In this document: piece after piece, positions 2,179 to 16,696 of the stretch
How the letters are laid out: each line of letters begins with the position of its first letter
How positions within the stretch are numbered: position 1 is the first letter of the stretch
Origin: Planctomycetota bacterium
Lineage (GTDB): Bacteria; Planctomycetota; Phycisphaerae; SM23-33
Direction of reading: 5' to 3'
DNA: 37,147 bases
NCBI GenBank assembly: GCA_024275995.1
Contig: JAJRYB010000012.1
Span: 1-37,147, forward strand
Program-made: the position numbers and the translations under genes
Notes under the pieces: generated by a model
Databases searched by the model: none
The model's input: only the letters and a program-made list of their open reading frames with translations
Told to the model about the DNA's origin: nothing

Positions 2179-2400
2179 TTATTCGCTCCGGCCGGACCAG
2201 GAGTCCCTGTCCACCTCCGCTTCGATCTTGCCGTAACCCAGCGCTGCCAGGAGCAGCGTGAGAAGGGCGGCCATGCGCGTAGCCGCGGTGACGAAGGCGG
2301 ATTCGTGTTCCGGATAAAAGAGGGCGACGACGGCGGCGATCTGCACCGCTATGGCTGTGAGAAACTTGCGGGACGAAAGACGCTGAAGGAATGAACGCAT
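2179..2400 (-). CDS. Small two-helix membrane protein, holin-like
   Basis: A 73-residue protein with two hydrophobic segments (about residues 12-28 and 44-58) separated by a short charged turn, and a charged C-terminal tail. This layout, and its place at the 3' end of a phage structural operon, resembles class II holins, which open the inner membrane during lysis. Recognition rests on topology and context, not on a family motif. The start at 2400 is chosen over an upstream ATG because AGGAG lies at the right distance before it. No endolysin gene is next to it. It could also be a packaging-unrelated small membrane protein. Confidence 0.55.
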   Translation of the reverse strand: MRSFLQRLSSRKFLTAIAVQIAAVVALFYPEHESAFVTAATRMAALLTLLLAALGYGKIEAEVDRDSWSGRSE

Positions 2401-2404
2401 GTGT

Positions 2405-2505
2405 ATTCTCCTGTTTTTTTTTGAGATCTGCAATTTGATATTTGAGATTTAATACATGCCTGCGGCAGGCGGGTCCGAGATTTGAAATTTGAAATTTCGG
2501 GTTTG
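2405..2505. repeat. Dispersed ATTTGAAATTT-type AT-rich repeat
   Basis: Runs of GATTTGAAATTTGAAATTTC and relatives surround a CCTGCGGCAGG palindrome near 2459-2469. The same word family recurs at 28035-28048, 36335-36395 and 36698-36728, so it is a host-wide dispersed repeat. Here it lies between two phage-like genes. Confidence 0.6.
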
Positions 2506-2763
2506 TTACATCGTCAGCAATGCCGCCACGACGGGACCGGCCAAATCGAGCAGGCGGTTAAGCAGATCGAGTTCATTGCGTCCAGCGTGGTATGCCGAAA
2601 CCGCCTGTCGAAACTCATCGCTCTGGCGAATGGAAGTGGCGGCGCGTTCGGTCAGCGTAATGCGGTCGATCACGGTAGAGAGTGACGGATGTTCTCTCGC
2701 CCATACGTCGAAGGTCTGCTGAACGGCGCGAACGATCATCTGCTGGACCATTTCATCGGGCAT
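2506..2763 (-). CDS. Small helical hypothetical protein of the phage-like block
   Basis: An 85-residue, mostly helical protein with no recognised domain. The C-terminus (DLAGPVVAALLTM) is hydrophobic and could be a membrane-associating helix. An in-frame ATG lies further upstream at 2814, but the start at 2763 is preferred because AGGAGA sits about 9 bases before it and because it avoids overlap with the preceding lipoprotein gene. It belongs to the run of small genes that ends the phage-like operon. Function unknown. Confidence 0.55.
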   Translation of the reverse strand: MPDEMVQQMIVRAVQQTFDVWAREHPSLSTVIDRITLTERAATSIRQSDEFRQAVSAYHAGRNELDLLNRLLDLAGPVVAALLTM

Positions 2764-2800
2764 TGCTGTGTCTCCTGTTTCTTGTGAAGTTTTCGATGCG

Positions 2801-3307
2801 CTACTTGCGGTCATCCGTTTTGACGATCGCCTGCTGGACGGAAAGAAGGTGCTGCCTGATGCGCTCTGTCACGTTGAGTTGGCGAATGACAAGTTCCGAG
2901 GCCATCTCCAACGATTCGTCGGCCGCCTTGAGATTGTCCAGGCGCTTGGCGTGGGCCGCCTCCGCGGAGCGAACCTGCTCCGCGATTAGCCCGCGAGCGG
3001 CGGTGTAACCCTTTCTCGCAGAAATTACCCATTCGCCCGTCAGTGTAAGGCTCTTGCCCTGGGCGTCCTTGATCTGTCCAGCAGCCACCAGGCGAACGTC
3101 GTTGTCAAACGCATGGTCCAGCGCATTGGCTTGTGCGTGAAGGTTGCGGACGATCTCATCGTGCTGGGCGATCTGCCCTTCCCTGGCGCCGGAGATCGCC
3201 TTGCGCGCTACGGTGATCAGTTGCAACGTACTCGCCGGGGCGGTGCAACCCGATAGAAACAACGACAGCGGAAGGATTATCGAAGCATATTTACCGAGTG
3301 TTGACAT
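2801..3307 (-). CDS. Predicted lipoprotein, spanin-like position
   Basis: A 168-residue protein with a clear lipoprotein signal: a short basic N-terminus, the hydrophobic stretch IILPLSLFL and the lipobox LSGC, with the lipidated cysteine near residue 21. The mature part is predicted to be largely helical with several charged heptad-like stretches. In phage lysis cassettes an outer-membrane lipoprotein often acts as o-spanin, and here it directly follows a small one-helix membrane protein that could be a partner. That role is inferred from context only, and the protein is longer than typical o-spanins. The start at 3307 has AGGAG upstream and overlaps the end of the preceding gene by 17 bases, suggesting coupled translation. 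Confidence 0.72.
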   Translation of the reverse strand: MSTLGKYASIILPLSLFLSGCTAPASTLQLITVARKAISGAREGQIAQHDEIVRNLHAQANALDHAFDNDVRLVAAGQIKDAQGKSLTLTGEWVISARKGYTAARGLIAEQVRSAEAAHAKRLDNLKAADESLEMASELVIRQLNVTERIRQHLLSVQQAIVKTDDRK

Positions 3308-3560
3308 GATGAAGCTCCTGTCGGAAATCTTTGACAGCGTCACAGAGTTCCCGTTGAATTTCGTTGAATCTCGTCATCGCGGTCGTGTTCTGTTCGACAA
3401 CGTGCGTGAGCTTGCTGAGGCGTTCTTCATCGCGCATGATCCGCCCGTGCGCATCGCCCAGTTGTTCTTCACGAAGCCGGCTGAGCTTGCGCTCCCACAG
3501 CCACATCGCCCCCATAAGCCCGGCCGCGCCGAAGCTCGCAAGATCCGCAATAAGCGCCAT
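3291..3560 (-). CDS. Small membrane-anchored coiled-coil protein, UviB/BhlA or i-spanin-like
   Basis: An 89-residue protein with one N-terminal transmembrane helix (about residues 5-22) and a long charged helix that looks like a coiled coil (24-85). This matches the layout of BhlA/UviB holin-like proteins and of inner-membrane spanins. The ATG at 3560 lies 21 bases after the previous gene and the end overlaps the lipoprotein start. The reading frame is open well upstream, but that extension runs antiparallel through a neighbouring gene in another frame and has Arg-rich, low-complexity composition, so it is rejected. Function is inferred from topology and position. Confidence 0.6.
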   Translation of the reverse strand: MALIADLASFGAAGLMGAMWLWERKLSRLREEQLGDAHGRIMRDEERLSKLTHVVEQNTTAMTRFNEIQRELCDAVKDFRQELHHVNTR

Positions 3561-3580
3561 TGTTCCCACGTCTACACCTT

Positions 3581-4627
3581 TCAATTCGGCGGGCTGTCCA
3601 GATCGAACTCGACGATGGCCCGTCCTGTAATGCCGATCGTCTCCGTACCCGTGTCGCTTCTTTGGACCAGGAAATTCTGTTCCGCGCCGTCGATCATCGT
3701 CTGCAATGCATTCGTGACGGACGATCCGGACAATGTGCCCGCCGTGCCTGCGGTAAGGGTTGTTGAACCGATGAACTCGGCGTCGTCGGCGCCCGACGCG
3801 CCTGGCACGCTCCATGTGAGCGATGCGCCCGGGGCATATTCGTTCCAGGTCGGCAAGTCCTGATCGAAATCCAGCGGGCGCAGGCAGCGATAAACGCCCA
3901 CTTCGCAATCGCTGTCCGCTGTCAGCTCGATGAAACTTCCGGGGCGAACCGTGACGTTCGTCAGCCCTTTCGCTGGCTCCTCGCCGGTTCGAAGAATCGC
4001 GAAACCCAGGCTTCGAAGCTCGTTCATACCGTTGTTCGCGATCGCCTCGCCAATCCAGGGCGTCTCCGGCAGGACGGAAAATATGCCGGCTGAAAAATAA
4101 ATCGGTAGTTCCCATCGACCTCGCCGCATCCATTCGACGGACTGGCGAAGCTCATTCACATGCACCGCGCGGATATGATCCTGTCCGGCCAGAAGGTCCA
4201 CGTCAGTCCAGTCGGAGGTGCCATTGAGCTTTTGAAAGAGGCCCACTTGACCTTCCTGGACGCCCCCTGTTCCTGTGACGATTATTTTGCCCTCGTCGCT
4301 ATCCTGCTCCGGCCACAGCCAGGCCATCGCTTCGGGCGTGGGGGGCGATCCGCCCATCGAGCCTGTAGCGGGGGAAACAAGCCGGTCCGTCACGATGTAA
4401 CGAAAGTTGTCCGTCGGGTCGGAAGCGGTCGGCGCGAATGTTTCGATACTTACAAACGCGCCGCCTTGAAGTTCTTCGGAAAAGTCCTCCGGCGTGCGAT
4501 ACGTCAGAAGACTTCGGCGGGCCAGGGCCGTTTCGATCTCCATCGCGTCAGATAATTTGACGCGGTGAACGCCGCCTTCGAGGCGGCCCTGCGCGTTTGC
4601 ATTGATCCAGGTGGCTGCGTACGTCAT
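3581..4627 (-). CDS. Phage tail-associated hypothetical protein
   Basis: A 348-residue protein without a recognised family. It is rich in beta-forming, Gly/Thr/Ser segments, particularly the last 120 residues, typical of phage tail-tip or fibre proteins. A central stretch (about 120-200) has a mixed helical pattern. It sits in the tail half of the phage-like operon, 5 bases after a 185-residue gene and followed by the small membrane genes. The start at 4627 follows directly from the previous stop. No catalytic motif is seen. Confidence 0.6.
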   Translation of the reverse strand: MTYAATWINANAQGRLEGGVHRVKLSDAMEIETALARRSLLTYRTPEDFSEELQGGAFVSIETFAPTASDPTDNFRYIVTDRLVSPATGSMGGSPPTPEAMAWLWPEQDSDEGKIIVTGTGGVQEGQVGLFQKLNGTSDWTDVDLLAGQDHIRAVHVNELRQSVEWMRRGRWELPIYFSAGIFSVLPETPWIGEAIANNGMNELRSLGFAILRTGEEPAKGLTNVTVRPGSFIELTADSDCEVGVYRCLRPLDFDQDLPTWNEYAPGASLTWSVPGASGADDAEFIGSTTLTAGTAGTLSGSSVTNALQTMIDGAEQNFLVQRSDTGTETIGITGRAIVEFDLDSPPN

Positions 4628-4632
4628 GGCTT

Positions 4633-5190
4633 TCAGTCCAGGTATTTCGCGTAGACGGGATGGTCGAATACGTACCGCCCCACCGGCGGGTCGCCGTTAT
4701 CCATAAGCACCGTCACGATTACGATCGAGTTGAGTTCCACCGCCGCACCCGATCCCAGCGAGAGTTCCGCCAGGTTGTAGGCGGTGACGTCGGAGGCGCC
4801 GCTTTTGTCGGTGAATGTTCCAGCGCCCGTCGCTATCTGCTCTCTGACTGAATACTCGCCGCTACCCTGCGACGAGATGACACGGGCGGGATACGATGTA
4901 GACCGGCTGGGACGGAGGAACACGATCCACCGACCTTCGACGTCCAGGGCTACGGCATCGGTATTTTCCGGAACCTGGCCGAGCGAGTCAGCCGGCTCGG
5001 CGAGATTGGTTACCGTCAGCGTTTCTTCCTCCGGGCAGACAGTCTGTCCGCTCGAGTCGAACTCGATGGGGCTGGCTTCGTAACGGTTGGCCTGGACGAC
5101 TTCCAGCAGACGGACAAGGCGCAGGCCCGGAGAAGACCCCGCCTGCACCAGACGAGAAAGAGCGTCGTGGAATTGCGCGGTTCGTGACAT
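4633..5190 (-). CDS. Hypothetical protein of the phage tail module
   Basis: A 185-residue protein with an N-terminal helical stretch (residues 1-35) followed by beta-rich sequence with many Val, Thr and Ser residues. No domain is recognised. It starts 2 bases after the stop of the large hub-like gene and is followed after 5 bases by the 348-residue gene, so all three are surely cotranscribed and probably assemble in the same tail or adsorption structure. Confidence 0.6.
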   Translation of the reverse strand: MSRTAQFHDALSRLVQAGSSPGLRLVRLLEVVQANRYEASPIEFDSSGQTVCPEEETLTVTNLAEPADSLGQVPENTDAVALDVEGRWIVFLRPSRSTSYPARVISSQGSGEYSVREQIATGAGTFTDKSGASDVTAYNLAELSLGSGAAVELNSIVIVTVLMDNGDPPVGRYVFDHPVYAKYLD

Positions 5191-5192
5191 GA

Positions 5193-6923
5193 TTATCCTC
5201 GTATCGTGAGGGTCGTGCTTTGGATGCGGCCGTATTCGTGTCGAACGGAATGAACGTAAGGCCGCTTATCGAGACTGGACGCCAGCTCGAGCAATCGTCC
5301 ATCCACTCGCTCGACGATGTCGCCCACGTGGTATGAACAGTTGATCCAGCCGAGAGACAGCTTTGCTTCCGTAGCCGATGCAAACGCCTCGGCGCGGCGC
5401 AGAGCGAGGCGATGTAACACGTCAGTATCGTCCTTTTCTACCGCCGGATCGGCACCAATGTTGTGGAAGACGCTCGACTCGCAGACATGCCGGAATTCTC
5501 CGACACCGGGGAACTTGACTACCTCACGGGCAGTGCCCCCGTCGCCCTTGATCGCCACCGTCAGGCGCGTGTCGGCCTGGATGGCGGCGGTCACGCGAAC
5601 TTGAACTTCATGTGCCGCAGCTGCTTCAAAATAGTCGCCGGGCAGCTCGTCGCCTCCGAGATACACCGTGCATTCGTCCCTGGAAACCCAGACCGGCCCT
5701 TCCCACCTGCGCCAGGGCTTGCTCTCGCCGCATCGGTACTCGACAACCGTTCCAAGGCTTCTTCCCGAGATGTCCTGTGAAATACACGGAAGGAATTTTC
5801 GCGGCTGCGATGTCAGGAAGTCCGACGGGCTGATATCGGCGAAACTGAAAAGAGGCGCGCTCCATGGATTTTCGCTGTAGCGGCCGTGCTCGTTCAGGAT
5901 CCATTTCCGATAGACATCCGCGACCGCGGAAAAATCTTCGGAATCGCTGCGAACGAAGTCCCGCCATCGCGACGTTTCCGAGTAGCTGTCCCAGCCCGGA
6001 AAGAGATCGAAAGTGGATTCGTAGAGCTTGGGTTTTCCCATCGCGATGAGACCCTGTCGGGAGGGACGCCGTGCAAAAGTGATCTTCCCGCGATGGAGAT
6101 TGGTTTTCTTGAGATCCAGTTGATTGCCGTTTGGCTGCAGGCGAACGCTGCGACGCTGCCCGCCCCTGCCGGGCCTGAAAAAGACAAGTCCCAGCTTCGT
6201 TCGCGAGGTGCGCAGGTCCAGACCGGCCGAATTCGCGACCTTCATGATTGCCTGGACTATCGACATTCCGCTCAAGTTTTCCGTGCCGAGTGGCATTTCT
6301 TCCGTGAGCGTTTCGAGTTCGGACAACGATGGAACGTGAACGTAGGGGGGTATCGCCGCGGCGAGCAGGTATGCCAGAGCGTCTGCGGCGGACCACAGGC
6401 GTCCTGTTGGCGACGAACTGAACACGCGCGTTGTTCTTTCGTTCAGTTCCACCTGTTCGTCGCTAGCCGGCAAAGAGTCGCTTTCGTTAAATCGAATATC
6501 GGCGTTTTCGACATGCACCAGTGACGAGGACTCCATGTGCCATCGTCCTGACAGGTTGGCATTCAGCAACCGGCAGAGTTGGTGTTCCACTTCCGCCGCG
6601 TATTGCTGATCGGGCCCGACTCGTATGACCTGACGGCTGACGATTCCAGGTAGTTCGATCGCCGCGGGGCGCGGTGCGGGACGGATCAGCACCTTCGTCC
6701 CGACGGGAGGCAGGAAGTTTTTGTCCTCGACTGTTGTTGAACCATCGGGCGACATGTGGCCTTTAACGACAAGCCTCGCACGTGCGAATATCGGTGCCGG
6801 CAGAAACTCCCACTCCGTGACGAGAAGGTCGCGACGTCGCATGCCGTTGACGTAGACACGGGCAGGCCGGCACTTGATGATTGTGGCTTGCTCCGATGGT
6901 GGATTGATTGTCAGCGAGATCAC
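5193..6923 (-). CDS. Phage tail hub/baseplate-like protein
   Basis: A 576-residue protein I read as a tail hub candidate. The N-terminal 250 residues have the beta-rich, alternating pattern of gp27/gp44-like hubs, including a segment about a property of the axis (VGTKVLIRPAP, then PGIVSRQVIRVG). A helical part near 170-250 (SAADALAYLLAAA, SIVQAIMKVANSAGL) resembles the hub motif in which a pseudo-helical element asks for a binding site. The C-terminus (about 490-576) ends in beta strands (HSVRHEYGRIQSTTLTI). The start codon is GTG at 6921-6923, overlapping the stop of the 719-residue gene as GTGA, which indicates translational coupling. The hub assignment rests on pattern and gene order only. 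Confidence 0.5.
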   Translation of the reverse strand: MISLTINPPSEQATIIKCRPARVYVNGMRRRDLLVTEWEFLPAPIFARARLVVKGHMSPDGSTTVEDKNFLPPVGTKVLIRPAPRPAAIELPGIVSRQVIRVGPDQQYAAEVEHQLCRLLNANLSGRWHMESSSLVHVENADIRFNESDSLPASDEQVELNERTTRVFSSSPTGRLWSAADALAYLLAAAIPPYVHVPSLSELETLTEEMPLGTENLSGMSIVQAIMKVANSAGLDLRTSRTKLGLVFFRPGRGGQRRSVRLQPNGNQLDLKKTNLHRGKITFARRPSRQGLIAMGKPKLYESTFDLFPGWDSYSETSRWRDFVRSDSEDFSAVADVYRKWILNEHGRYSENPWSAPLFSFADISPSDFLTSQPRKFLPCISQDISGRSLGTVVEYRCGESKPWRRWEGPVWVSRDECTVYLGGDELPGDYFEAAAAHEVQVRVTAAIQADTRLTVAIKGDGGTAREVVKFPGVGEFRHVCESSVFHNIGADPAVEKDDTDVLHRLALRRAEAFASATEAKLSLGWINCSYHVGDIVERVDGRLLELASSLDKRPYVHSVRHEYGRIQSTTLTIRG

Positions 6924-9079
6924 GACTGGTCTCCTTGCAGAAAGGCGGGTACCGCCGGCGACGTGGGTATCTTTACGGAAACTACCTTACCCAGTGAACT
7001 CGTTTGTCCATTCGCTATGGCCCGGACGGCAATCCTTATCGTGTTGGAGGGCGTCTGGGGGATCGGGAAAGTTACTTCCACGTCGTCGGCGCTTGGGGGT
7101 ACGTCCGATACGACGTAAATGGGTGTTTGAAGGTCAAGTATGCCGCTGCCGGAATCGCTGAATACTTCGAATCCCGCTGGCTGGGAATGACCAGCCGGTG
7201 TCTCGTAGGAGAACCCGACGCGAATGTGGGCGTCCGGAACAATTTCGGCGCTGGTGTCGAAAGGTCTCGCCAGGGGGGCGGGCAGCAGAGCGTCCTCAGT
7301 ATCTGTTTCCAGATGAATGACGACGTGCGTGTTCCGTTCTTCCACGCCCGCTGACGATACCTTTCTAAGCCCAAGGACGTTTCGCAAGCCCGATTCGAGC
7401 GGCAGGTGAAGCTCCATGCTTTCATCTTCTGGTTTCGCGTAGGCGACAGGATTGTTCCAGTCGATATCTTCGACACCGCCAGTACCGAGATAGAAATTGT
7501 ACCCGGCCAGCAGGAATGCAACGGTCATCAGCGGGCTTCCGGCGACGACGGACGTGTGGTCCACCTTCTCGACGGCTGCAAGGGCAGCCTCGGCGAAGGT
7601 AGCGCCGACCCGTAGCAGCTCGCAGAAGGCAGTCTTATCGAAACCCGTCGGCGACGAGTTGGCAAAGCCCGCGCCGGAGGCGTAACCGGCGGCCAGCAGG
7701 CCATACGTGACCCAGTCGCTCACGCTGCGGAGCGTCGCGGTATCGTTCTCGCCGTCGTCCACGACCGTCACACGGCTGCCTGAGGCGTCCAGGTCGGTTA
7801 TTCCCGTAACGCCCAGGACGAAAGCGGCGTTCGGCGTCAACATATCACCGCTTGCCGCCGTAGCGATCCGCAGCTTCTGGCAGTCCACGGACGCCCTGTA
7901 ATCCGCATCGTCGCTGTAGAGGATGTCGGTATCAGGCAAGGCGCTGAGGGTCTCGATCGTGGCTGCGCGGTCTATCAGCGCCTTGGCGTTTGCGAGCGTG
8001 TCGGCGTCGATCCGCGTCGCCAGCCAGAGATTTTCAGCGCGAATTTCGGAGGCGGTCTTTCGCGTCGTCGTTTGATAAAACGGGTTGGCCGTACCGGACG
8101 AGAACGCCGTCCCGAAGTGGTTCAATCTGCTCGTCGCAGAATGTAATTTCCCACTACTCGTGAAAAAGCCTGGGGTTCCATAGCCTATCAAAAAAGCGCA
8201 CGCGCGGGCCTCGATGACCGGTCGGCCATTCAAAAAACTCGTCAGATCGTTTTCGACCTGGCTCTGGAACGTCGCATAATCGGCCAGCGACTCGCTGCTC
8301 GAGGCGTTGGGCAGATAGCAGATGAGCGATCGCGGCGTTTGCAGCTCGGAAATGCAGTAGTCGGCGAATTCCCTTCCGTCGGAGCTGTCCGGCACCAGGA
8401 CGACAGTCCGTCTCGCCTCGACGTAATCGCCGTTCGGCTCGGGCGAGAACGGTTCCACGTCGGCAAGCGAGGTGCCGATCTTGATCTCGTCGAAGTCGCA
8501 GGTAAAGCCGTCGGAGACACCGGACGACGCGCCGATTCTGATGTACGAGGTGCCGTCCAGTGTATCGTAATTGTCCAGCCCGGAAACCGACCCCGCCGAC
8601 AGGCCGTCCACGAACAGCTCTCCCCGCCCGTCGTTTGCCGTCGGCGAGGACGCCCGCACGATATTGGCGACCACGTAGACCCACCGGCCCGTGTCGATCG
8701 CCTGCGAATATGACGTCGAATGATAGCTGCCGGCGTCGTCGCGCAGTTGCAGCCGGAGCTTTCCGTAGTTGGACAGTTTGATAAAGAAATCGTTCAGTGC
8801 GATGCGGCTGATGATAAAGAACATCTCCAACGGCGGCGCCACCGGGACCCGAAGCCAAAAGCCGACGTGGTAACCTTCACCCGGCGAGAGCGTGGCGACG
8901 TCGTTGCGCGTGACGTAGGCCCTGTCCGTGCCGACGACGGTTGTCCGCAGGCCGACGGCGCCGCGTTCGGGGAAGGCCGCATCGGTGGACTGGACGATCG
9001 TCGAGCTTCCGGCCTGGACGACCGCGTCCCACTCGCCGAATGCAGGAACCTCATTGTCGATGTAATGCAGGAGGCTCAT
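6920..9079 (-). CDS. Large tail or adhesion protein with LamG-like and TIGR03790-like regions
   Basis: A 719-residue protein. Residues about 15-215 look like a LamG/concanavalin-type jelly roll: phrases such as YHVGFWLRVPV, RWVYVVANIV, GELFVDGLSAG and FDEIKIG are typical of this sugar- or surface-binding fold. Residues about 225-530 resemble the TIGR03790 family seen in Planctomycetota and Myxococcota: a strand plus nucleotide-like start (RRTVVLVPDSS), FLIGYGTPGF, NPFYQ, LWLATRIDADTLANAKALID, and a closing VGATFAEAALAAVEK followed by VVAGSPLMTV. The last 180 residues are beta-rich. The gene lies among tail genes, so a receptor-binding or fibre role is likely. The start at 9079 has GAGG upstream. 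The TIGR03790 match is by eye and needs a profile search. Confidence 0.65.
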   Translation of the reverse strand: MSLLHYIDNEVPAFGEWDAVVQAGSSTIVQSTDAAFPERGAVGLRTTVVGTDRAYVTRNDVATLSPGEGYHVGFWLRVPVAPPLEMFFIISRIALNDFFIKLSNYGKLRLQLRDDAGSYHSTSYSQAIDTGRWVYVVANIVRASSPTANDGRGELFVDGLSAGSVSGLDNYDTLDGTSYIRIGASSGVSDGFTCDFDEIKIGTSLADVEPFSPEPNGDYVEARRTVVLVPDSSDGREFADYCISELQTPRSLICYLPNASSSESLADYATFQSQVENDLTSFLNGRPVIEARACAFLIGYGTPGFFTSSGKLHSATSRLNHFGTAFSSGTANPFYQTTTRKTASEIRAENLWLATRIDADTLANAKALIDRAATIETLSALPDTDILYSDDADYRASVDCQKLRIATAASGDMLTPNAAFVLGVTGITDLDASGSRVTVVDDGENDTATLRSVSDWVTYGLLAAGYASGAGFANSSPTGFDKTAFCELLRVGATFAEAALAAVEKVDHTSVVAGSPLMTVAFLLAGYNFYLGTGGVEDIDWNNPVAYAKPEDESMELHLPLESGLRNVLGLRKVSSAGVEERNTHVVIHLETDTEDALLPAPLARPFDTSAEIVPDAHIRVGFSYETPAGHSQPAGFEVFSDSGSGILDLQTPIYVVSDVPPSADDVEVTFPIPQTPSNTIRIAVRAIANGQTSSLGKVVSVKIPTSPAVPAFLQGDQS

Positions 9080-9087
9080 GCTTTTAC

Positions 9088-9200
9088 CTCATTCAACGCA
9101 GAGAACGCGGAGAGCGCAGAGTTTTTTGTTTGTGTTTCAGACATCGTCTAGGTTTTTCTCCGCGTGCTCTGCGATCTCTGCGTTGAAACTATTTTTTTGC
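9088..9200. repeat. Inverted pair of TTCAACGCAGAGA-type dispersed repeats
   Basis: TTCAACGCAGAGAACGCGGA begins near 9093 and its inverted relative ends in TCTCTGCGTTGAA near 9187. The two arms are about 30 bases each with some mismatches. When translated, this repeat yields the familiar FNAEIAEHAEK string, seen in many environmental bacterial genomes. It is therefore a dispersed host-type repeat lying between two phage tail genes. Confidence 0.65.
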
Positions 9201-9511
9201 AAAAAATCTTCGGCGATCTCGGCCAGGCGTTTCTCGTCGTCGCCTGGTTCGCCGTGGTTAAGCTGCACGCGGATGGTAGCCGGTAGTCGGGAGTCAGTAG
9301 TCAGTTCAAAAAACCGCGCTGCGTGCGTCGGGAAACGTCGGGTGCGTTCGAGCGTCGCGGCGACCGCAGTCTGTCTGTTTTTCCCGGCTACCGGCTCCGG
9401 GCTACTGACTACGAATCGCCGCCTCTCGTCCCTGGCGAACGGCTTTTTACCACGGAGATCACCGAGGTCACTGAGGTTCTGGTTTTGAAGTTGTGCTTTT
9501 GAACCATTCAT
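9137..9511 (-). CDS. Doubtful 124-residue ORF partly built from repeats
   Basis: An open frame of 124 codons between two tail genes. The middle part (PATIRVQLNHGEPGDDEKRL) looks protein-like, but the last 17 residues (FNAEIAEHAEKNLDDV) are encoded by a dispersed repeat and the ribosome binding site is weak (AGAGAAAAA). The frame also continues open upstream through another repeat. It may be a real small tail gene whose end was overrun by a repeat, or merely an open frame through repeat sequence. I lean slightly against coding. Confidence 0.3.
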   Translation of the reverse strand: MNGSKAQLQNQNLSDLGDLRGKKPFARDERRRFVVSSPEPVAGKNRQTAVAATLERTRRFPTHAARFFELTTDSRLPATIRVQLNHGEPGDDEKRLAEIAEDFLQKNSFNAEIAEHAEKNLDDV

Positions 9512-9552
9512 TTGTTTTTCTCTGTGCTCTCTGTGTCCTCTGTGGTTCAGGT
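9270..9552. repeat. Cluster of dispersed inverted repeats (GTAGTCGGGAG and CTCTGTG types)
   Basis: GGTAGTCGGGAGTCAGTAGT near 9281-9300 has an inverted relative, GGCTCCGGGCTACTGACTAC, near 9392-9411, framing an 80-base core. Further right, ACCACGGAGATCACCGAGG near 9450 faces CTCTGTGTCCTCTGTGGTT near 9530-9548. The same families recur at 28500-28590, 28805-28862 and 36243-36270. Confidence 0.6.
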
Positions 9553-10488
9553 TGTTATCGCCAGTGACTGCGAGTAGATACGCCCGTCGATCTCTGCCAT
9601 GACGTAGAGCGTCTTGGCTCCGCCGGCGTCGATGTTCATGGTCACCAGCCCGGTGGCGTCGGAGATAACCTCGTAATCGGCGTCGGCCTCGATCTCTCTC
9701 ATCTGTTCGCCGGTGGATACGGAGAAATCCGTCTGCGGGTCGGGCTCGGAGAAGTCCGCATCGGCGATCCACGTGCGGATCAGGAATCGCTCGGCGAGGT
9801 TGTTGCCTGCGGCGTCGGCGACCTGAATGTCCATCAAGCCCGTGCCGCCGCCATGATCCGATCCCGCGAAAACTATTTGTGGGATCATGTCCGCCAGGCC
9901 GCTTTCCAGCCCGGCAGCGGCGTGGACATGCAGGGCGTCGGCGTTGGATGTGTCGGTGAGCGTCTCGGCCTCTGCGCCGGTGATGTCGGTGGCGGCGAAA
10001 AACGCCCTTGCCTCGGCATCCGTAACGCCGTAGATGCACGTCCCGCGATAGTCGATCACGTCCCCGCCGTTTGCGACGATCCGCCCGTCGTACGTTCCGC
10101 CGGAGGCTAGGATCATCGCCAGTCGCAGGTGCGGCGTTGCCGACGGCACGGGGAAGCCGGTCGTGTTGACGGTGAGCGTGCCGGAGGCGGTCAGGTAGAT
10201 GTAGTTGGCAGCGTTGTTGGTCAGGGCGTTGCCTGTGGACGGGGCATACTCGATAAGCGTATCGCCGTTGAGGAACTTGCCCGCCCGCACGCCGAAGGTC
10301 AGGTCGCCGTCCTTGAAGACTCGCAGGTCCCCGGCCCGTCGGGCGACGTTCAGCAGCCGCTGGAGCATCTTATAAAAGCTCGTGTAGTAGGGCGATTCAC
10401 CGACGGTGAGGAAGGCGACTTCCTGCTCGGCGTCGGTCGTGCCGGAAAGGTTGTCAAGTTCCGTATCTGTTGGGTAAAGCTCTGTCAT
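9547..10488 (-). CDS. Phage tail fibre-like structural protein
   Basis: A 313-residue protein, beta-rich and full of Gly, Thr, Asp and Ala, with phrases typical of tail fibre shafts and decoration proteins (FGVRAGKFLNGDTLIEYAPS, ANYIYLTASGTLTVNTTGF, GGDVIDYRGT). No enzyme motif is seen. The start at 10488 is chosen over an ATG four codons upstream because GAGGT stands about 6 bases before it. It follows the 244-residue gene with a 10-base gap and is part of the tail module. Its C-terminal end reaches the edge of a repeat cluster. Confidence 0.65.
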   Translation of the reverse strand: MTELYPTDTELDNLSGTTDAEQEVAFLTVGESPYYTSFYKMLQRLLNVARRAGDLRVFKDGDLTFGVRAGKFLNGDTLIEYAPSTGNALTNNAANYIYLTASGTLTVNTTGFPVPSATPHLRLAMILASGGTYDGRIVANGGDVIDYRGTCIYGVTDAEARAFFAATDITGAEAETLTDTSNADALHVHAAAGLESGLADMIPQIVFAGSDHGGGTGLMDIQVADAAGNNLAERFLIRTWIADADFSEPDPQTDFSVSTGEQMREIEADADYEVISDATGLVTMNIDAGGAKTLYVMAEIDGRIYSQSLAITT

Positions 10489-10496
10489 GGTCGACC

Positions 10497-11231
10497 TCAC
10501 TCGATATGAAGGGTTAGCAATCCTGTCTGGGGCTCATAGTTGCTTACGTAAAATGCATCAGGTGGTAAAGGCGGCGGGGCGGAGCGTATGTTCTCCAATT
10601 GCGTTTCGACCTGTGTGCCGTCAGGTGTCGTCACGCGGAATACGATTCGGTGCATTCCCTCTTCCGGAAGTGGAATCGAGGTGGAGATCAAGTCCACCCC
10701 GAAGCCGAACATCCCGGCTCCGAAAGCGCCTTTACCGAGTCCCGGCGCAAGGAAGCCGTCGTATCCCAAAGCGCCCCTTCCGAAGACGTCCTGCCCCCAG
10801 GCGAAGCGAGGCAGAGATTCGGGCCAGGCTGGCATTGACGTAATGGGTTCGGCGTCAAGTTCACCCGTTGCGTGATCGTCGAAGACTTCAAGCCGCGAAC
10901 CCCTTGGATAGGACACTGATCGGAGGATCCATGAGCGGTAAACCCAGCCTGGCCGTCTGAGGGAAATCGGCAGATGATCGGACAGGTCTTCCGTTCGTTT
11001 TGCCGGGTCTACGGCCGTGATCGTCAATTCCGTCGGGCAGTCCGCTGCCTCGACCAGGAACGCTCTTTGATCTGTCGTATCGGTCCACGCGACAAGTGCG
11101 CCGTTGGCGTATAACTGGTGATACATGCCTGGGTTGTGTGACCGGAACGTCACGCACCACAGCCCCGGAACGTCCGGCAGCGGATACGCCAGAAGAGAGT
11201 CGATATTGTCTGTTATCAGGACATTTGTCAT
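10497..11231 (-). CDS. Phage tail protein, glycine-phenylalanine-rich middle
   Basis: A 244-residue protein with no recognised family. Residues about 1-110 are beta-rich with a fibronectin-like or Ig-like feel (LWCVTFRSHNPG, AFLVEAADCPTELTITAVD). Residues about 145-180 hold a Gly/Phe-rich segment with repeated FG.G units (VFGRGALGYDG, GAFGAGMFGFG). The C-terminus is beta-rich again. Its start overlaps the stop of the previous gene as ATGA (11228-11231), showing tight coupling. Tail-tip or fibre-associated role is inferred from context. Confidence 0.6.
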   Translation of the reverse strand: MTNVLITDNIDSLLAYPLPDVPGLWCVTFRSHNPGMYHQLYANGALVAWTDTTDQRAFLVEAADCPTELTITAVDPAKRTEDLSDHLPISLRRPGWVYRSWILRSVSYPRGSRLEVFDDHATGELDAEPITSMPAWPESLPRFAWGQDVFGRGALGYDGFLAPGLGKGAFGAGMFGFGVDLISTSIPLPEEGMHRIVFRVTTPDGTQVETQLENIRSAPPPLPPDAFYVSNYEPQTGLLTLHIE

Positions 11232-11593
11232 GGTAGTTGCCGATATTCGATCTCGTACTCACACCAGAAGCCGCGGGCCTTCCTGATGGGACTTGTCAGG
11301 CGGAAGCTTTCGATTAAGACTTTCTGGAATGTTTGTCCGTGGTTGTCCACCAGCCTGTGCGCGGCGCCGTCGATAAGCTCTTCGATCTGTGCTATCTGCG
11401 CGTAAAGCTCGCTTGCCGAATCAGCTTGCAGCCGACCTGTCTGCGTTACCCGCTGCGGACGCAACCCGAAGTCGAGGACGAGTTCACCGTCGATACCGGG
11501 GAAGCTGCGGCGCACGGTTTCTCTCGTTTGTCCGCCGGGAACGAGTTCGTTTGGTCCGGTTGAGAAAACGTCCTGTCCATCCAGCGTGGTCAT
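11228..11593 (-). CDS. Small phage tail protein, distal-tail-like
   Basis: A 121-residue protein with the pattern RSFPGIDGELVLDFGLRPQRVTQTGRL in its first half, which resembles the N-terminal strand set of distal tail and DNA-circulation-type phage proteins that speak of a rotated or zeroed frame; the second half ends in EYEIEYRQL, a terminal strand pair. It overlaps both neighbours by four bases (ATGA at each end), consistent with obligate coexpression. Family assignment is tentative and rests on motif feel and gene order after the tube-like gene. Confidence 0.5.
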   Translation of the reverse strand: MTTLDGQDVFSTGPNELVPGGQTRETVRRSFPGIDGELVLDFGLRPQRVTQTGRLQADSASELYAQIAQIEELIDGAAHRLVDNHGQTFQKVLIESFRLTSPIRKARGFWCEYEIEYRQLP

Positions 11594-11994
11594 TCCTGTA
11601 CCTCCGCGGCGAAGGGATCGATGGCGCCGCTTTGTGCTTCGGCGGCAAATTTCAGTTCCGCCGTGGCCATTCCGGACTGTTCGTAAGACAGTCGAACATC
11701 TGTGAGGACAGAGCCGACCAATGAAACGATTCTGGCCTGCTGCCCCTCGGCAGAGGCAATCGTGAACGAAAGTGTGGCGATATCGCCCAGTGTCAATGCC
11801 TCTGCGGCGGCTATGTCCCGAATGCGCACTTCCGCGGTCAGGATCGGTCGATCAAGCTGGATGCTGGTGGCGAACGAATCGCTGTCCGCCCCTGTCGCCA
11901 GGGCGCCGGCGTGTCGCGATAGGCGGATCGAAACCGGCAGCGGAAGGGCGGTTTGTCCGAAGGTAGCCGAGATGATTCTTGTATATCGTCCCAT
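11590..11994 (-). CDS. Tail tube-like protein
   Basis: A 134-residue beta-rich protein with helical content limited to short stretches (DIAAAEALTLGD). The ending, with VRLSYEQSGMATAELKFAAE, resembles the last strands of small phage tail tube and gpV/XkdM-like proteins. Its position after the connector and terminator-like genes fits a tail tube. The start at 11994 overlaps the previous stop by one base (TGATG). A short tube subunit with no tape-measure gene nearby is unusual. Confidence 0.45.
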   Translation of the reverse strand: MGRYTRIISATFGQTALPLPVSIRLSRHAGALATGADSDSFATSIQLDRPILTAEVRIRDIAAAEALTLGDIATLSFTIASAEGQQARIVSLVGSVLTDVRLSYEQSGMATAELKFAAEAQSGAIDPFAAEVQE

Positions 11995-12428
11995 CAGAGA
12001 CCTCCCTCAGATTCGAAGTGGCACCTGACGTGGAGCACGGCTTCGATTTCCGGGCGTCGGATGCTTGAATCCACTTCGCAACGGAGTATCTCACTTGCCC
12101 GTCCGAGAGGAAGGTCGCGGCAGCGTCCCCCGCGATACGGATCGTTCAATATCGCCCCGGCCAGTATCGAGCAGACGTCCATGACGCGGGCGACGCCCTG
12201 TCCCGCCGCCGAATGCCGCGCGTGAATTCGGATGCGAACGTTCAGGCGAACCCACGTGGTGGACGGTGAATCGTCACACTGAAATGCCTCCTGGCTTTCG
12301 AGATGAATGCATGCGCGCAAGCTGGCTGTGGAGTTTCCGGCGTCGCCGAGCACAACCAGCGAGAAGACGTCCGTCGATCTCGCCGTCGAGACGAGGTCCT
12401 GGAGTATTTCTGTGCCGATGGCGGTCAT
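11994..12428 (-). CDS. Tail terminator/completion-like protein
   Basis: A 144-residue protein whose arrangement resembles phage tail terminator or minor tail U-like proteins: an N-terminal helix (TEILQDLVSTA), strands (RLNVRIRIHAR), a helix (RVMDVCSILAGAIL), then closing strands (EIEAVLHVRCHFE). It lies directly after the connector gene, the usual site of head-completion and terminator genes, with a 3-base gap. The assignment is from fold pattern and gene order. Confidence 0.5.
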   Translation of the reverse strand: MTAIGTEILQDLVSTARSTDVFSLVVLGDAGNSTASLRACIHLESQEAFQCDDSPSTTWVRLNVRIRIHARHSAAGQGVARVMDVCSILAGAILNDPYRGGRCRDLPLGRASEILRCEVDSSIRRPEIEAVLHVRCHFESEGGL

Positions 12429-12431
12429 TGC

Positions 12432-13085
12432 TCAGACTCTCCTCAATCTCACGTTTCCCAGCGTGCGTGTTTGCTCGGGGACGCCGTCGCCGTCGAGATC
12501 CACTGCCATGCGGAGCTGGACCTGGAGCCGGCGAAATTGATTTGTGTAATATTCCGCCTTGATCCAGTTGGCGTCCCGGGCGGTCGCGTTTTCCGCGCGG
12601 GCAGTGAAAATCGCCGCCAGCGCGCCGTGCGCGATGACAGAGCGGAGCTGGCTCGAATCCACAAAGTCGGCCGAGTCTATTCCTGCCGATTCGGTTACCA
12701 TGCGAAGTCTCTCGGCGAGGTCCTGGTATTTCTGTCGTATCTGGGGAGCAAACGATAGGACGTGGAACTTCAGATCGCTACCGGTCGGCGGCGCCAGGGC
12801 TGTTCCAGCCGGGTCGTTACGCAGCAGGGAAATGGTCAGTGTGGTTGCTGAGTCCACGGCTACTATTTCCCAGGCGCCACCTTCGGAAGGGATGGTCGTG
12901 TACGTCGTGAGGACCATGCCCGGGACAATTTCGACGGCGGCGAAGTCGGCCGAAGCGGAGGTAAATGTCGTGCCGCTTATTGCCCCGTCGTCGCCGGCGA
13001 TGAGTCGCTGACTGGCCGGTCCTTCGTCCAGGAACACGCCTGGTTCGATTCCCAGCAGGTCTCTATCCGTGCACGGTATGCTCAT
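12432..13085 (-). CDS. Head-tail connector/adaptor-like protein
   Basis: A 217-residue protein placed right after the major capsid gene. Its first 100 residues are beta-rich (GAISGTTFTSASADFAAVEI, MVLTTYTTIPSEGGAWEIV) and its second half is helical (QKYQDLAERLRMVTE, SSQLRSVIAHGALAAIFTARA, WIKAEYYTNQFRRLQVQLRM), a helical bundle as in head-completion adaptors that bind under the portal. The ribosome binding site before 13085 is weak (AGAGATG). The 135-base gap upstream holds a large inverted repeat. Confidence 0.5.
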   Translation of the reverse strand: MSIPCTDRDLLGIEPGVFLDEGPASQRLIAGDDGAISGTTFTSASADFAAVEIVPGMVLTTYTTIPSEGGAWEIVAVDSATTLTISLLRNDPAGTALAPPTGSDLKFHVLSFAPQIRQKYQDLAERLRMVTESAGIDSADFVDSSQLRSVIAHGALAAIFTARAENATARDANWIKAEYYTNQFRRLQVQLRMAVDLDGDGVPEQTRTLGNVRLRRV

Positions 13086-13133
13086 CGTTCATCTCTACTT
13101 TCGTGTTCTGTGTCTGCCAGTTTGGTTGTGGGT

Positions 13134-13207
13134 CGCCGGGCCCGTTCCCCGAAAGCCGGCTATGGTCGCATTGTGGCGACCGGAGGAACGGGCCCGGCGC
13201 CCCAGGC
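13134..13207. terminator. Nested GC-rich inverted repeat after the capsid gene
   Basis: CGCCGGGCCCGTTCC (13134-13148) pairs exactly with GGAACGGGCCCGGCG (13185-13199). Inside lies GGTCGC...GCGACC, and just right is GGCGCC-CCA-GGCGCC (13193-13207). It follows the capsid stop in the direction of transcription. No T-run follows, so it is either a transcript-end stabiliser, a weak terminator or a palindromic repeat of the host. Confidence 0.45.
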
Positions 13208-13220
13208 GCCGGGGTTACGG

Positions 13221-14381
13221 TCAAGACACGTCCAGGCTGGTGATCATGCCGTGGGCGTTCTCGTTGCGAAGCTCCAGTGTGTACTCTCCGATGACTTCAC
13301 CGGCTTCATAGTCGCCGGTGGAAGCGAGCGGCTTGTAGTGGAAGCTGCGTCCCGAAAGCCCCAACACGTCCACTCGCGAGCTGTCCAGTAGAAGGACGGA
13401 ATTCGCCGGAACGGATCGGCAGAGAATGACACGGCAGATACCGAAGTCGCTCTCGTAGACGCTCACCAGGTCGCGGAATGACACGTCCTGCGGGCCGAAT
13501 GATCTGCTCGACGTGATGAAGCTGTTGATACGCCGCTTCTGGTAGCCGTTGACGGCGATCGTGTCGATGCGCGCCGAGGATTGCTCCCAGATAGTGCGGA
13601 GCGCCAGGTTCAGTTGTGCCTCGGTGAGGTCGCCGTCGGCAGGGAAGCCGTCGACGTTAGGCTGGAACACGTTCGTCGTCAGTGTCGGGATGACTCCCTT
13701 CATCGTTCGCCGGACGGTTTCGGAACCTTGCGGATTGGTGGCGGGGGAAGCGCCGTTGACGACGGTGCTCTCCAGGTCCCTGAGCAACTCTCGCAGGCGT
13801 TCCTGTTTCTGGTAGTCCAGTTCATCCGAAACGGCGACCTTCCGGACGGCGAGGTCGGACCCGCTGACGCGCACGGCGGCGGTGAAAATCTGAGTCCAGT
13901 TGCCTTTCCGGCTACGGGTGGAGAAACGCGCCGACGGGGCGCTGTCGCCTTCCAGCGCGGCGTTGCCCAGGATATGGAGCACCTGTCCGTCCACGAGGTC
14001 CTCGGGCGTCGTTCCACCGTAGCCGCGAACCACCGTAACGTTCCCCCCGCCGGTATCCACGGCGGATACCAGCATCAGTTCGCCGCTGCCGTCGGGACGG
14101 ACCTGGTCGCCAACGCGGAAACGATCCGCATTGTCAACGTCGAAAGTCGTGTCTGCCGACGGGTCCGTCCAGGTGCCATCGTTGATCGTGTCGGTGTTGG
14201 GTAGAAGCTCGTCTTCCAGCCATTCGTGATATGTGCTCGTCGCCATGCGGGGCGCGTCGCCCAGGTGGTCCAGCAGGGGCGTCTCATATGGAGAGACGAT
14301 ACTGACGATGTCAGAGACGTCCTCTGCGATTTCGGGCAGCTCAGCCCCGGATGCGTATGTGGCTTTTCCTGTAAATGACAT
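13221..14381 (-). CDS. Major capsid protein (SU10/DUF5309-like HK97 fold)
   Basis: A 386-residue protein that looks like the SU10-type major capsid family: the N-terminal region has the family's typical run (ELPEIAEDVSDIVSIVSPYE followed by TPLLDHLGDA), followed by a short beta section for the E-loop area, then the helical spine (LRELLRDLESTVVNGA) and the peripheral region with VNGYQKRRINSFI and FRDLVSVYESDFG. It would form the icosahedral shell. The ATG at 14381 has an ideal AAGGAGAT upstream, so it is preferred to an in-frame ATG further upstream at 14414. It lies immediately after the scaffold gene, the classic order. No separate head maturation protease gene is seen. A hairpin lies just before the ribosome binding site. 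Confidence 0.85.
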   Translation of the reverse strand: MSFTGKATYASGAELPEIAEDVSDIVSIVSPYETPLLDHLGDAPRMATSTYHEWLEDELLPNTDTINDGTWTDPSADTTFDVDNADRFRVGDQVRPDGSGELMLVSAVDTGGGNVTVVRGYGGTTPEDLVDGQVLHILGNAALEGDSAPSARFSTRSRKGNWTQIFTAAVRVSGSDLAVRKVAVSDELDYQKQERLRELLRDLESTVVNGASPATNPQGSETVRRTMKGVIPTLTTNVFQPNVDGFPADGDLTEAQLNLALRTIWEQSSARIDTIAVNGYQKRRINSFITSSRSFGPQDVSFRDLVSVYESDFGICRVILCRSVPANSVLLLDSSRVDVLGLSGRSFHYKPLASTGDYEAGEVIGEYTLELRNENAHGMITSLDVS

Positions 14382-14396
14382 TCTGATCTCCTTGCT

Positions 14397-14428
14397 GCGT
14401 AGTCGGGTCGGCAAAGACCCCGGCTACT
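14397..14428 (-). repeat. Hairpin between scaffold and capsid genes
   Basis: Read on the minus strand, GTAGCCGGGGTC pairs with GACCCGACTAC (one mismatch and one bulge) around a TTTGCC loop, a few bases before the capsid ribosome binding site. It could tune capsid translation or transcript ends, or be a copy of the host GTAGTCGGG-type repeat. Confidence 0.4.
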
Positions 14429-14433
14429 TCCGT

Positions 14434-15003
14434 TCAACAGTTATTTGACAGTGCGATTTCCCGTCGCAGACGCAGATACTCAGCCACATGCCGCCGGTTT
14501 CCCGTTTGGGAGGCTTTTTCGGCTGCCTTGGCCAGGTTCGCCGCCATGGTTACGTTGCGAATGGACGCGGTTCTCGGCGGTAGAGAAGCGTCTTCCTCTT
14601 TGGCGAGAAACGGCTTGTCTACCAACAGCCGCTCTACGCTCTGAGCCAGAGTGTCCGGATCGAGTTCTTCACCCAGATCGACCCTCTTGGAAAGCAGCAG
14701 TGACGCCGCATCCAGGTCAACGACTCCGGCACAGCTCAATATGCGTTCAGCCGACAGGCGGTTCCGGGTAACGGTCAACTGGTGATTCGTTTCGTCCCTT
14801 TGCGCTTCTGCCGCCGCCAACTCATCGCTTTGTGCGTGGAGCTGCGTCTGCAATTCACCGAGCTTCTGCTCGACTTCCTGAATCCTGGTTTCAGCCTGTT
14901 GTGCCCGTCGGCGGTACTTGATGGATTCGCCCACAGGTACGAGTCTTGGCGCGCCGGATTGATCCTGGCTTTCTTCCGGATTCTCAACTTCTGTTTCTGG
15001 CAT
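14434..15003 (-). CDS. Phage scaffolding-like protein
   Basis: A 189-residue protein located between portal and capsid genes, where scaffold genes lie. The N-terminus is acidic and disordered (PETEVENPEESQDQSG), residues about 30-85 form a long predicted coiled coil (RRAQQAETRIQEVEQKLGEL onwards), and the C-terminal part is helical and ends with basic residues (RRHVAEYLRLRREI), the usual capsid-binding end of scaffolds. The ATG at 15003 has AAGGAAA upstream; the open frame extends further but overlaps the portal gene and is not expected to be translated. It probably guides capsid assembly and then leaves the shell. Confidence 0.65.
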   Translation of the reverse strand: MPETEVENPEESQDQSGAPRLVPVGESIKYRRRAQQAETRIQEVEQKLGELQTQLHAQSDELAAAEAQRDETNHQLTVTRNRLSAERILSCAGVVDLDAASLLLSKRVDLGEELDPDTLAQSVERLLVDKPFLAKEEDASLPPRTASIRNVTMAANLAKAAEKASQTGNRRHVAEYLRLRREIALSNNC

Positions 15004-15022
15004 GTAACTTTTCCTTATGTGT

Positions 15023-16696
15023 TCAGATGTTCCGATTTCGGGTATCTTGTGTGGAATATCCGAGCTCGGAGAGCACAGTCTCCTGCGGGACTCCGAGCTG
15101 GATTTTTGTCTGGGCGTTGCGAAGTTGTTCGCTTTCGTCTGTCGGAAGGGGGTTTGACCAGAGCACTTCCGTTCTGCGATCTTCAGGCGCGGTGTGAAGG
15201 ACGCCTGTCCTGGCAAGCCACTCCAGGCATAGTTTGGCGATGGCCTGGAGTCCCCGGCCGTAGGTGAGCCTTTTCTTGGCGGTCCGCATCAACAGGCCGC
15301 TCAGCAGGACTTTCAGCGCGGTCGCACTTGTGAGGTGACCGATGTTGCCCCGGACGAGTCCCGCAGCCAGCGGTGTGACGCCGGAAACCTTGTCCATCGC
15401 CTGGCGCACCTCTTCGATATGAGCATCCTCGCTGGGAGAACCCGTGTCGGTGCCGAATTCCTCGATGCGTGCATCGAGATTCTGCGTAGCCCACATCTGC
15501 CCTGGGCCAACCGGTCGTTCGAGAAAATCGTCAATCCCTTTTCCAAGGTACATCTTGAACGACTGGTAGGTCACACGATTGGCGCGATCGGACAGCCGTG
15601 TGTTAAGTTCGTCCTGGAGCGGAATCAGCGGTTCCACGTCGCTCTGGCCTTCGTAACTGCCCGGCATCGCGAGGTTCTGAACGTGAACGATCGGTATCCT
15701 CCCGAGGGCATTTGGGCCTTCCGCCACAAGTACCCGGTCCTCGTATCGCTGCCACCACGACGGGCCGAAAATTTCCACTACCTCGACGACGGCTTGCGCC
15801 TGGCGATCTTTGCCGAGGTGGAACCAGGCTCGTTTGGACCCGGCGAGCCTGGACGGGCACTTGTGAAAACGCTGGATCCAGTAACGCGTGTGCGTGTACT
15901 CGTTTTCGTCCAGAATGGGCAGAACTCGGGGCGCCTCGATCGTCTCAAGTTGGATTTTGCGGGCCGACGCCAGAACCCGTCGCAATGCGGTTCTAGACCC
16001 AGCGCGGTCCGAGTCCTGCAACCGTTCCGGTTTGAAAGATTTCTTTCCCGAGTCGGAGCCGTCGCCGCTCGCGGTTTCGGGACCGTTTTTAGAAGTGCCC
16101 GGCCGGCTTGGTCCGTCGCCTGGAAGCGCTTCGGTGGAGGGGGCGCTTTGCGGGCGGAAAAGGGAACCGAATCGCTCTGGCTTATAGCCGGCCGGGGTGC
16201 GAAGTGCGATATCAATGAATCCGTATATGGAACCCAACAGGGCGATTTCCTGAAGCAGACCAATGCCGCCGTTGGCATCCAGGATCGTGTCGAGCACCGT
16301 TTCAATAACGCCTGCCACATGAGGATCAGGCGCCAGTGACTTGATGGTGACAGGCTTTCCGAAGAGAAAGTCGACCATCGTGTGGATACGCCACGCAATG
16401 TCGTTCTCGATGACGACTTCTTTTCGTCGCAAGTCCGTCGTTCCGTTGCTGGCGTTGGATCTGAAGATGCCGGTGATACGTGCCGGAAGACCCACCTCCT
16501 GCGCCTGAAAATATGGTCGACTGTTGGAATTCAGTACCCTGGAGGTCGGGCCTTCGATTGGTAGAAGCGGGTTGCGGAAGTAGTCCCATCGTTGCTTGCG
16601 GGACATCGTCGGCTGGGACGATTGCCGATCGATCATGTACGCCAGATACTCGTCAGAAAGTTGCGGGTCTTGGAAGTTCGCCAGGTTGAAAGCCAT
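15023..16696 (-). CDS. Phage portal protein (SPP1 gp6-like)
   Basis: A 557-residue portal protein, which forms the ring at one capsid vertex through which DNA passes. Recognisable features are the WRIHTMVDFLFGKPVTIKS segment (about 102-120), the stem/crown helices with QDELNTRLSDRANRV, and the late segment VTPLAAGLVRGNIGHLTSAT before a long helix with MRTAKKRLTYGRG. Residues about 180-235 are a Ser/Gly/Pro-rich, probably disordered insertion (PSTEALPGDGPSRPG, SGDGSDSGKK) within the wing region. A strong GAGGAGAT precedes the ATG at 16696. It is the first gene of the block; a terminase would normally lie just upstream, but here there is a repeat element and then host purB. Confidence 0.85.
   Translation of the reverse strand: MAFNLANFQDPQLSDEYLAYMIDRQSSQPTMSRKQRWDYFRNPLLPIEGPTSRVLNSNSRPYFQAQEVGLPARITGIFRSNASNGTTDLRRKEVVIENDIAWRIHTMVDFLFGKPVTIKSLAPDPHVAGVIETVLDTILDANGGIGLLQEIALLGSIYGFIDIALRTPAGYKPERFGSLFRPQSAPSTEALPGDGPSRPGTSKNGPETASGDGSDSGKKSFKPERLQDSDRAGSRTALRRVLASARKIQLETIEAPRVLPILDENEYTHTRYWIQRFHKCPSRLAGSKRAWFHLGKDRQAQAVVEVVEIFGPSWWQRYEDRVLVAEGPNALGRIPIVHVQNLAMPGSYEGQSDVEPLIPLQDELNTRLSDRANRVTYQSFKMYLGKGIDDFLERPVGPGQMWATQNLDARIEEFGTDTGSPSEDAHIEEVRQAMDKVSGVTPLAAGLVRGNIGHLTSATALKVLLSGLLMRTAKKRLTYGRGLQAIAKLCLEWLARTGVLHTAPEDRRTEVLWSNPLPTDESEQLRNAQTKIQLGVPQETVLSELGYSTQDTRNRNI

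Follow-up and report, generated by a model that had tools for sequence, protein, structure and literature searches.

Few lineages of gene transfer agents (GTAs) are known, most of them from Alphaproteobacteria. By the definition used here (PMC9662315), the genes of a GTA have homologues among the structural genes of tailed phages, are a fixed part of host genomes, often at several loci, and are inherited vertically, with trees congruent to those of the host; the particle is filled mostly with random host DNA, is unable to package its own genome and delivers DNA to other cells. In the literature searched, whose scope fell short of most subscription papers and preprints, we found no GTA in Planctomycetota or Phycisphaerae. 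Here we analyze a window of 37,147 nucleotides from a Planctomycetota bacterium of the class Phycisphaerae (assembly GCA_024275995.1, contig JAJRYB010000012.1) and, within it, the tail protein w10 and the phage-derived gene cluster that encodes it. The main result lies outside the coordinates of w10: the cluster is part of a phage-derived system of Planctomycetota that is spread across the class, encoded at several loci and inherited vertically.

With the RcGTA-type GTAs (Rhodogtaviriformidae; PMC9662315) the system shares tailed-phage structural genes packed into a compact cluster (~14.5 kb in this genome), a division of the genes among several loci, vertical inheritance, a slowly evolving capsid and purifying selection. 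It differs from them in its SU10-type capsid, its SPP1-type portal, a terminase encoded apart and its Planctomycetota host, and as a putative GTA it displays those GTA features that genomes can show. FpGTA of Faecalibacterium likewise has a short operon with portal, scaffold and capsid genes, but its operon includes the terminase and packaging data are available (PMC12946183). The RcGTA tailspike TspA resembles w10 in being a multidomain tail protein with an N-terminal beta-sandwich, and the equivalent position in other Phycisphaerae holds beta-helix proteins; TspA is, however, a trimeric biofilm-degrading tailspike (PMC13420450), whereas the body of w10 is a TIGR03790 domain. The Phycisphaerae isolate ZRK32 has a chronic phage that is described as extrachromosomal and 21.9 kb in size (PMC10945688), a description that sets it apart from the cluster.

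w10 is one of about 16 minus-strand genes (2179 to 16696), the order of which is constant across the bacterial family (Table 1). Homology to tailed-phage structural genes is found for the portal, the scaffold, the major capsid protein (MCP) and the large terminase subunit (TerL), and the system occupies several loci, with the purB locus in 10 genera and the terminase elsewhere. The portal gene is divergent from and adjoins purB in 11 genomes of these 10 genera of the family (G000, G002, G004, G006, G008, G009, G018, G023, G024, G027 and G031), and in the remaining family genomes, apart from three discussed below, contig ends preclude a judgement on adjacency. The MCP gene was detected in 20 of the 35 family genomes, nearly always at 70-82% identity, in 131 of 298 Phycisphaerae genomes, mostly at 53-82%, and in other Planctomycetota classes at ~50%; it is nearly always single-copy with an intact open reading frame (ORF). 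The nearest MCP among 50,697 phage records is 32% identical.

Comparison with rpoB revealed trees congruent with those of the hosts. The terminase tree (25 genomes) had 13 of 22 splits in common with that of rpoB and no conflict between well-supported splits, and the MCP tree (29 genomes) had 9 of 26 in common. Pairwise distances correlated with those of rpoB for both terminase (0.74) and MCP (0.70), the correlation for terminase being strong within the family as well (0.70), and MCP distances were ~0.6 times those of rpoB. Among three congeners, MCP and portal had dN/dS ratios of 0.09-0.10 and w10 had ratios of 0.21-0.26; ratios this low show that selection maintains the cluster, and the faster evolution of w10 relative to the head genes is what one would expect if it forms a surface-exposed tip. 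These data bear on the possibility that the cluster is an ordinary prophage or a decaying prophage remnant that lies beside purB by chance and encodes a typical tail fiber. The genes are plainly phage-derived, and related w12 and w10 pairs occur in genuine prophage or viral contigs, but either version is improbable given a single, intact copy in more than 100 genomes of many families, the same locus in 10 genera, the terminase at a separate locus, the agreement with rpoB, a dN/dS of ~0.1 and the fact that neither integrase nor replication genes were seen. Purifying selection on intact genes refutes the decaying version outright. The first-pass annotation was right about the phage-structural surroundings of w10 (here portal, scaffold, SU10-type capsid, connector and tail genes), but it missed that the cluster is no ordinary phage and is vertically inherited and GTA-like.

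Profile searches with Pfam and PHROGs recognized no terminase, integrase or tape measure in the cluster itself. Searches with PF03237 alone found little terminase and most genomes seemingly had none, a notion that we rejected when phrog_2 and a profile of phrog_2 matches showed PF03237 to be insensitive. With phrog_2, one strong terminase-like gene was found in 10 of 13 genomes; the encoded proteins are orthologues (39-62% identity to that of G000), carry the Walker A motif GGGKT, the Walker B motif CDEVELFD and nuclease motifs, and are labeled terminase large subunit in PHROGs. In the window genome the gene is on contig C49 and does not adjoin the cluster. Where a genome is a single contig, the distance between the two ranges from ~10 kb to 1 Mb, and in G046 the terminase gene is just upstream of the portal gene, with three small ORFs between them. 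MCP and terminase genes were both present in 123 of the 298 genomes and both absent from 141. This pairing is relevant to the idea of a domesticated particle that transfers no DNA, such as a bacteriocin-like or protein-delivery capsid, which would agree with the lack of a recognized tape-measure or sheath gene, with a cluster that has no terminase in cis in the window genome and with a GTA function that is only predicted. We regard such a particle as unlikely, since the head genes and portal are complete and the co-inherited terminase has intact Walker A/B and nuclease motifs, and a bacteriocin is not expected to keep capsid, portal and terminase. N-terminal extensions of the portal in two loci (L028 and L029) were considered as a fused terminase and rejected, as they have no terminase match and overlap purB on the opposite strand.

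The first-pass annotation had placed a TIGR03790-like region behind a LamG-like domain in an ORF at 6920-9079, with no strand stated, and had proposed a host-derived adhesion or processing module. The ORF has exactly these coordinates and runs on the minus strand (9079 to 6920), and every motif quoted for it is present (VVLVPDSS, YGTPGF, NPFYQ, TRIDADTLANAKALID, VGATFAEAALAAVEK and VVAGSPLMT). The LamG assignment holds, with a Laminin_G_3 match on residues 54-201 (E 2e-9; 38.2 bits against a Pfam gathering score of 27.6). A fold search with the whole w10 model returned mostly jelly-roll lectin and polysaccharide-lyase folds, and we take these matches to jelly-roll binding domains as model-based evidence of a lectin fold only. 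Scanned alone, w10 matched TIGR03790 with E 2.6e-5 and 23.9 bits, below the curated cut-off of 67 bits and over residues 232-377 only; it is the sole match in its own genome (a 2.64-Mb metagenome-assembled genome of 134 contigs). Orthologues at the same cluster position pass the cut-off over nearly the full profile (G046, 99.5 bits; G058, 67.9 bits), and an hhalign comparison of 16 phage or cluster copies with 10 cellular TIGR03790 proteins gave 99.1% probability (E 1.3e-18, 287 columns). Because the orthologues pass the cut-off and the profiles match each other, the relation is not due to chance, and the homology claimed for the central region extends over the whole domain; judged by its sequence, the w10 domain represents a divergent subfamily rather than a core member. 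The C-terminal region is all beta and is kept even where the N-terminal part is replaced, as seen in C-terminal-only homologues; Pfam FN3 did not match it.

We then turned to the fold of the central domain. The AlphaFold2 model of residues 212-526 had a mean pLDDT of 93.3 and a pTM of 0.92, and the top four PDB matches in Foldseek were the gingipains Kgp and RgpB (probability 0.99-1.00, E 2.6e-4 to 3.4e-3), followed by separase at lower probability; PDB profile searches with the domain were uninformative. The superposition on gingipains was partial (TM 0.48-0.54) and identity was 9-12%. The domain is therefore predicted to adopt a C25-like, caspase-type fold, in line with the resemblance that the earlier annotation had proposed to check by structure prediction. 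Among 16-20 homologues, however, we found no invariant Cys or His, and hence not the catalytic Cys-His dyad of peptidase C25. Although the cellular TIGR03790 proteins, of Planctomycetota and others, are homologous to the w10 domain over its whole length, the phage and cluster copies group in a clade of their own, have a LamG domain fused to them or encoded ahead of them, and have lost both a His that is invariant in cellular members, replaced mostly by Phe, and the GWY motif of the aligned cellular members. Residues common to both groups include N332, R356, D358, R451 and E497. A C25 peptidase would require conserved Cys and His residues; with neither invariant, the domain is probably a pseudo-peptidase with a binding or structural role. 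That it is instead an active C25-type peptidase processing envelope or tail proteins, as the fold match to Kgp and RgpB at probabilities up to 1.00 might suggest, is very unlikely in view of the missing dyad, the replaced His and the partial superposition, and we rejected an active protease on residue conservation. Of the proposed module, adhesion thus stands as the best guess and processing falls; the domain may have an enzymatic activity of another kind. No paper on the TIGR03790 family was found in the literature searched.

A tree of TIGR03790 proteins separated all phage and cluster copies, as a single clade with 97% bootstrap support, from the cellular proteins. This topology fits one old capture, which may have run from host to phage, as the suggested host-derived origin would have it, or the reverse. 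The position of w10 is modular: G021 combines its C-terminal region with a DNRLRE domain, G006 has lost all but the C-terminal domain, and in other families the position holds beta-helix, NosD-like or LamG proteins. The pairing of w12 with w10 was likewise seen in unrelated prophages and in viral contigs, where the head genes are different. In G008, the cluster and a prophage encode nearly identical TIGR03790 domains, which suggests recent exchange between the two, and the pattern fits a receptor-binding module shared among the phages and the particle of the same hosts. A tblastn search of w10 against sequenced phages and plasmids found nothing, as did a single-sequence scan of IMG/VR; a profile scan found four viral contigs. 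The prophage of G008 (contig C57; L025/L026) is separate from the cluster, with its own portal and a head-protease/capsid fusion, and carries w12 and w10. A 54-kb viral contig, IMGVR_UViG_3300035698_024250 (L056), encodes a TIGR03790-domain protein without the N-terminal LamG near a terminase gene.

We consider it likely that w10 is a modular receptor-binding protein, at the tail tip or in a fiber, of a host-domesticated, phage-derived particle that is most probably a GTA. The analysis shows which domains make up w10 and what fold is predicted, and that the cluster keeps its gene order, is single-copy, has a fixed locus, carries a vertical signal, is under purifying selection and co-occurs with a separately located terminase; tail location, glycan binding, DNA packaging and DNA transfer are what we infer. 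In the mechanism that we propose, head, connector and tail would be products of the cluster, host DNA would be loaded by the terminase encoded elsewhere in the chromosome, and particle release would fall to the lysis-like genes at the cluster end. In w10, the LamG lectin would bind a surface glycan, the TIGR03790 domain, gingipain-like in fold but lacking a catalytic dyad, would provide a further binding surface or serve as a rigid spacer, and attachment to the tail would be through the conserved C-terminal beta region. Several observations weigh against this reading. The cluster lies away from purB in G003, G014 and G030; MCP and rpoB show two local, strongly supported conflicts over the class and a weak correlation within the family (r = 0.31); seven genomes have the capsid gene without a terminase match (several of them incomplete) and 27 the reverse, and shared ancestry inflates the odds ratio of 92 for the association. 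For most cluster genes no function is recognized, the placement of w10 in the tail comes from its position and one weak fiber match, and the particle, its packaged DNA and the transfer are predictions from genes.

On balance, we lean slightly toward a broader interpretation: an ancient GTA lineage, independent of those described, that is multi-locus in much of Phycisphaerae and parts of other Planctomycetota classes, that recognizes cells by means of swappable adhesins, one of them built on a dead gingipain-like TIGR03790 domain, and with a capsid gene invaded by serine-recombinase elements. If this is true, a class-wide, slow-evolving capsid and a separately encoded terminase would give a major environmental phylum a lasting means of exchanging genes, and TIGR03790 would gain its first concrete setting and fold.

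Table 1. Genes of the phage-derived cluster, domains of w10 and the adjoining purB gene, with window coordinates.
Feature	Coordinates	Strand	Basis
purB (adenylosuccinate lyase), chromosomal anchor adjoining the cluster, no particle gene	16964..18394	+	Pfam ADSL_C, Lyase_1
Portal protein (SPP1 Gp6-like)	15023..16696	-	PF05133 E 1e-18; phrog_64 E 9e-26
Head scaffold-like protein; start uncertain, probably downstream of 15216	14434..15216	-	phrog_4708 E 1e-4; conserved position
Major capsid protein (MCP), SU10 type	13221..14381	-	PF17236 E 9e-81
w17, conserved cluster protein, connector position	12432..13085	-	conservation in relatives
w16, conserved cluster protein	11994..12428	-	conservation in relatives
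w15, conserved cluster protein	11590..11994	-	conservation in relatives
w14, conserved cluster protein	11228..11593	-	conservation in relatives
w13, conserved cluster protein	10497..11231	-	conservation in relatives
w12, fiber-like protein, accompanies w10 in other prophages	9547..10500	-	weak profile match to long tail fiber 8kec_A, E 0.0088
Small conserved gene between w12 and w10; start uncertain	9137..9547	-	38-45% identical frames in relatives
w10, 719-aa tail protein, LamG + TIGR03790 + C-terminal beta-sandwich region	6920..9079	-	
w10 residues 1-211, N-terminal LamG/concanavalin-A-like jelly roll	8447..9079	-	Laminin_G_3 and fold search
w10 residues 212-526, TIGR03790 domain, gingipain/C25-like fold without conserved Cys/His	7502..8446	-	
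w10 residues 527-707, C-terminal all-beta region	6959..7501	-	FN3-like by eye
w9, 576-aa conserved cluster protein, possibly hub or spike	5193..6923	-	conservation in relatives
w8, conserved cluster protein	4633..5190	-	conservation in relatives
w7, conserved cluster protein	3581..4627	-	conservation in relatives
w5, small lipoprotein-like protein, lysis or spanin position	2801..3343	-	sequence; conserved
w4, conserved small protein	2506..2814	-	conservation in relatives
w3, 84-aa holin-like membrane protein	2179..2433	-	weak phrog_297 holin match, E 0.12; hydrophobic stretches

Among the remaining cluster genes, w9 gave no family or PDB profile match in searches with Pfam, PHROGs and PDB profiles. 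Near the terminase, a helix-turn-helix (HTH) gene is present in G000 (L246, C49), G008, G027, G049 and G046 (L247, L248, L255 and L266), that of G000 with an S24-peptidase, CI/LexA-like domain, and in several genomes an ABC-type ATPase with a GNAT-like part and related genes adjoin the terminase. The HTH gene and the ATPase neighbors are candidate regulators.

Further observations concern the capsid gene. Two IMG/VR contigs called viral (L097 and L098) carry the same MCP at 77% and 63% identity and may be chromosomal clusters misread as viruses. In G112 (contig C106; L269) a reduced-looking cluster has the portal, capsid gene, a w4-like gene and the terminase within ~6 kb, an arrangement that is possibly ancestral or degenerate. 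The capsid gene is interrupted in four genomes of four families, G180 (C1; L271), G038 (C106; L272), G095 (C41; L273) and G210 (C103; L274), at sites near codon 57-60 in three cases and near codon 320 in one; Rfam revealed no intron in the interrupted genes. The inserts measure ~7-12 kb in G180, G038 and G210, and G095 has a similar element with rearrangement. All four elements carry homologous large serine recombinases (48-61% identical) and three of the four share a head-protease-like protein, and they may be parasites of the system or a switch.

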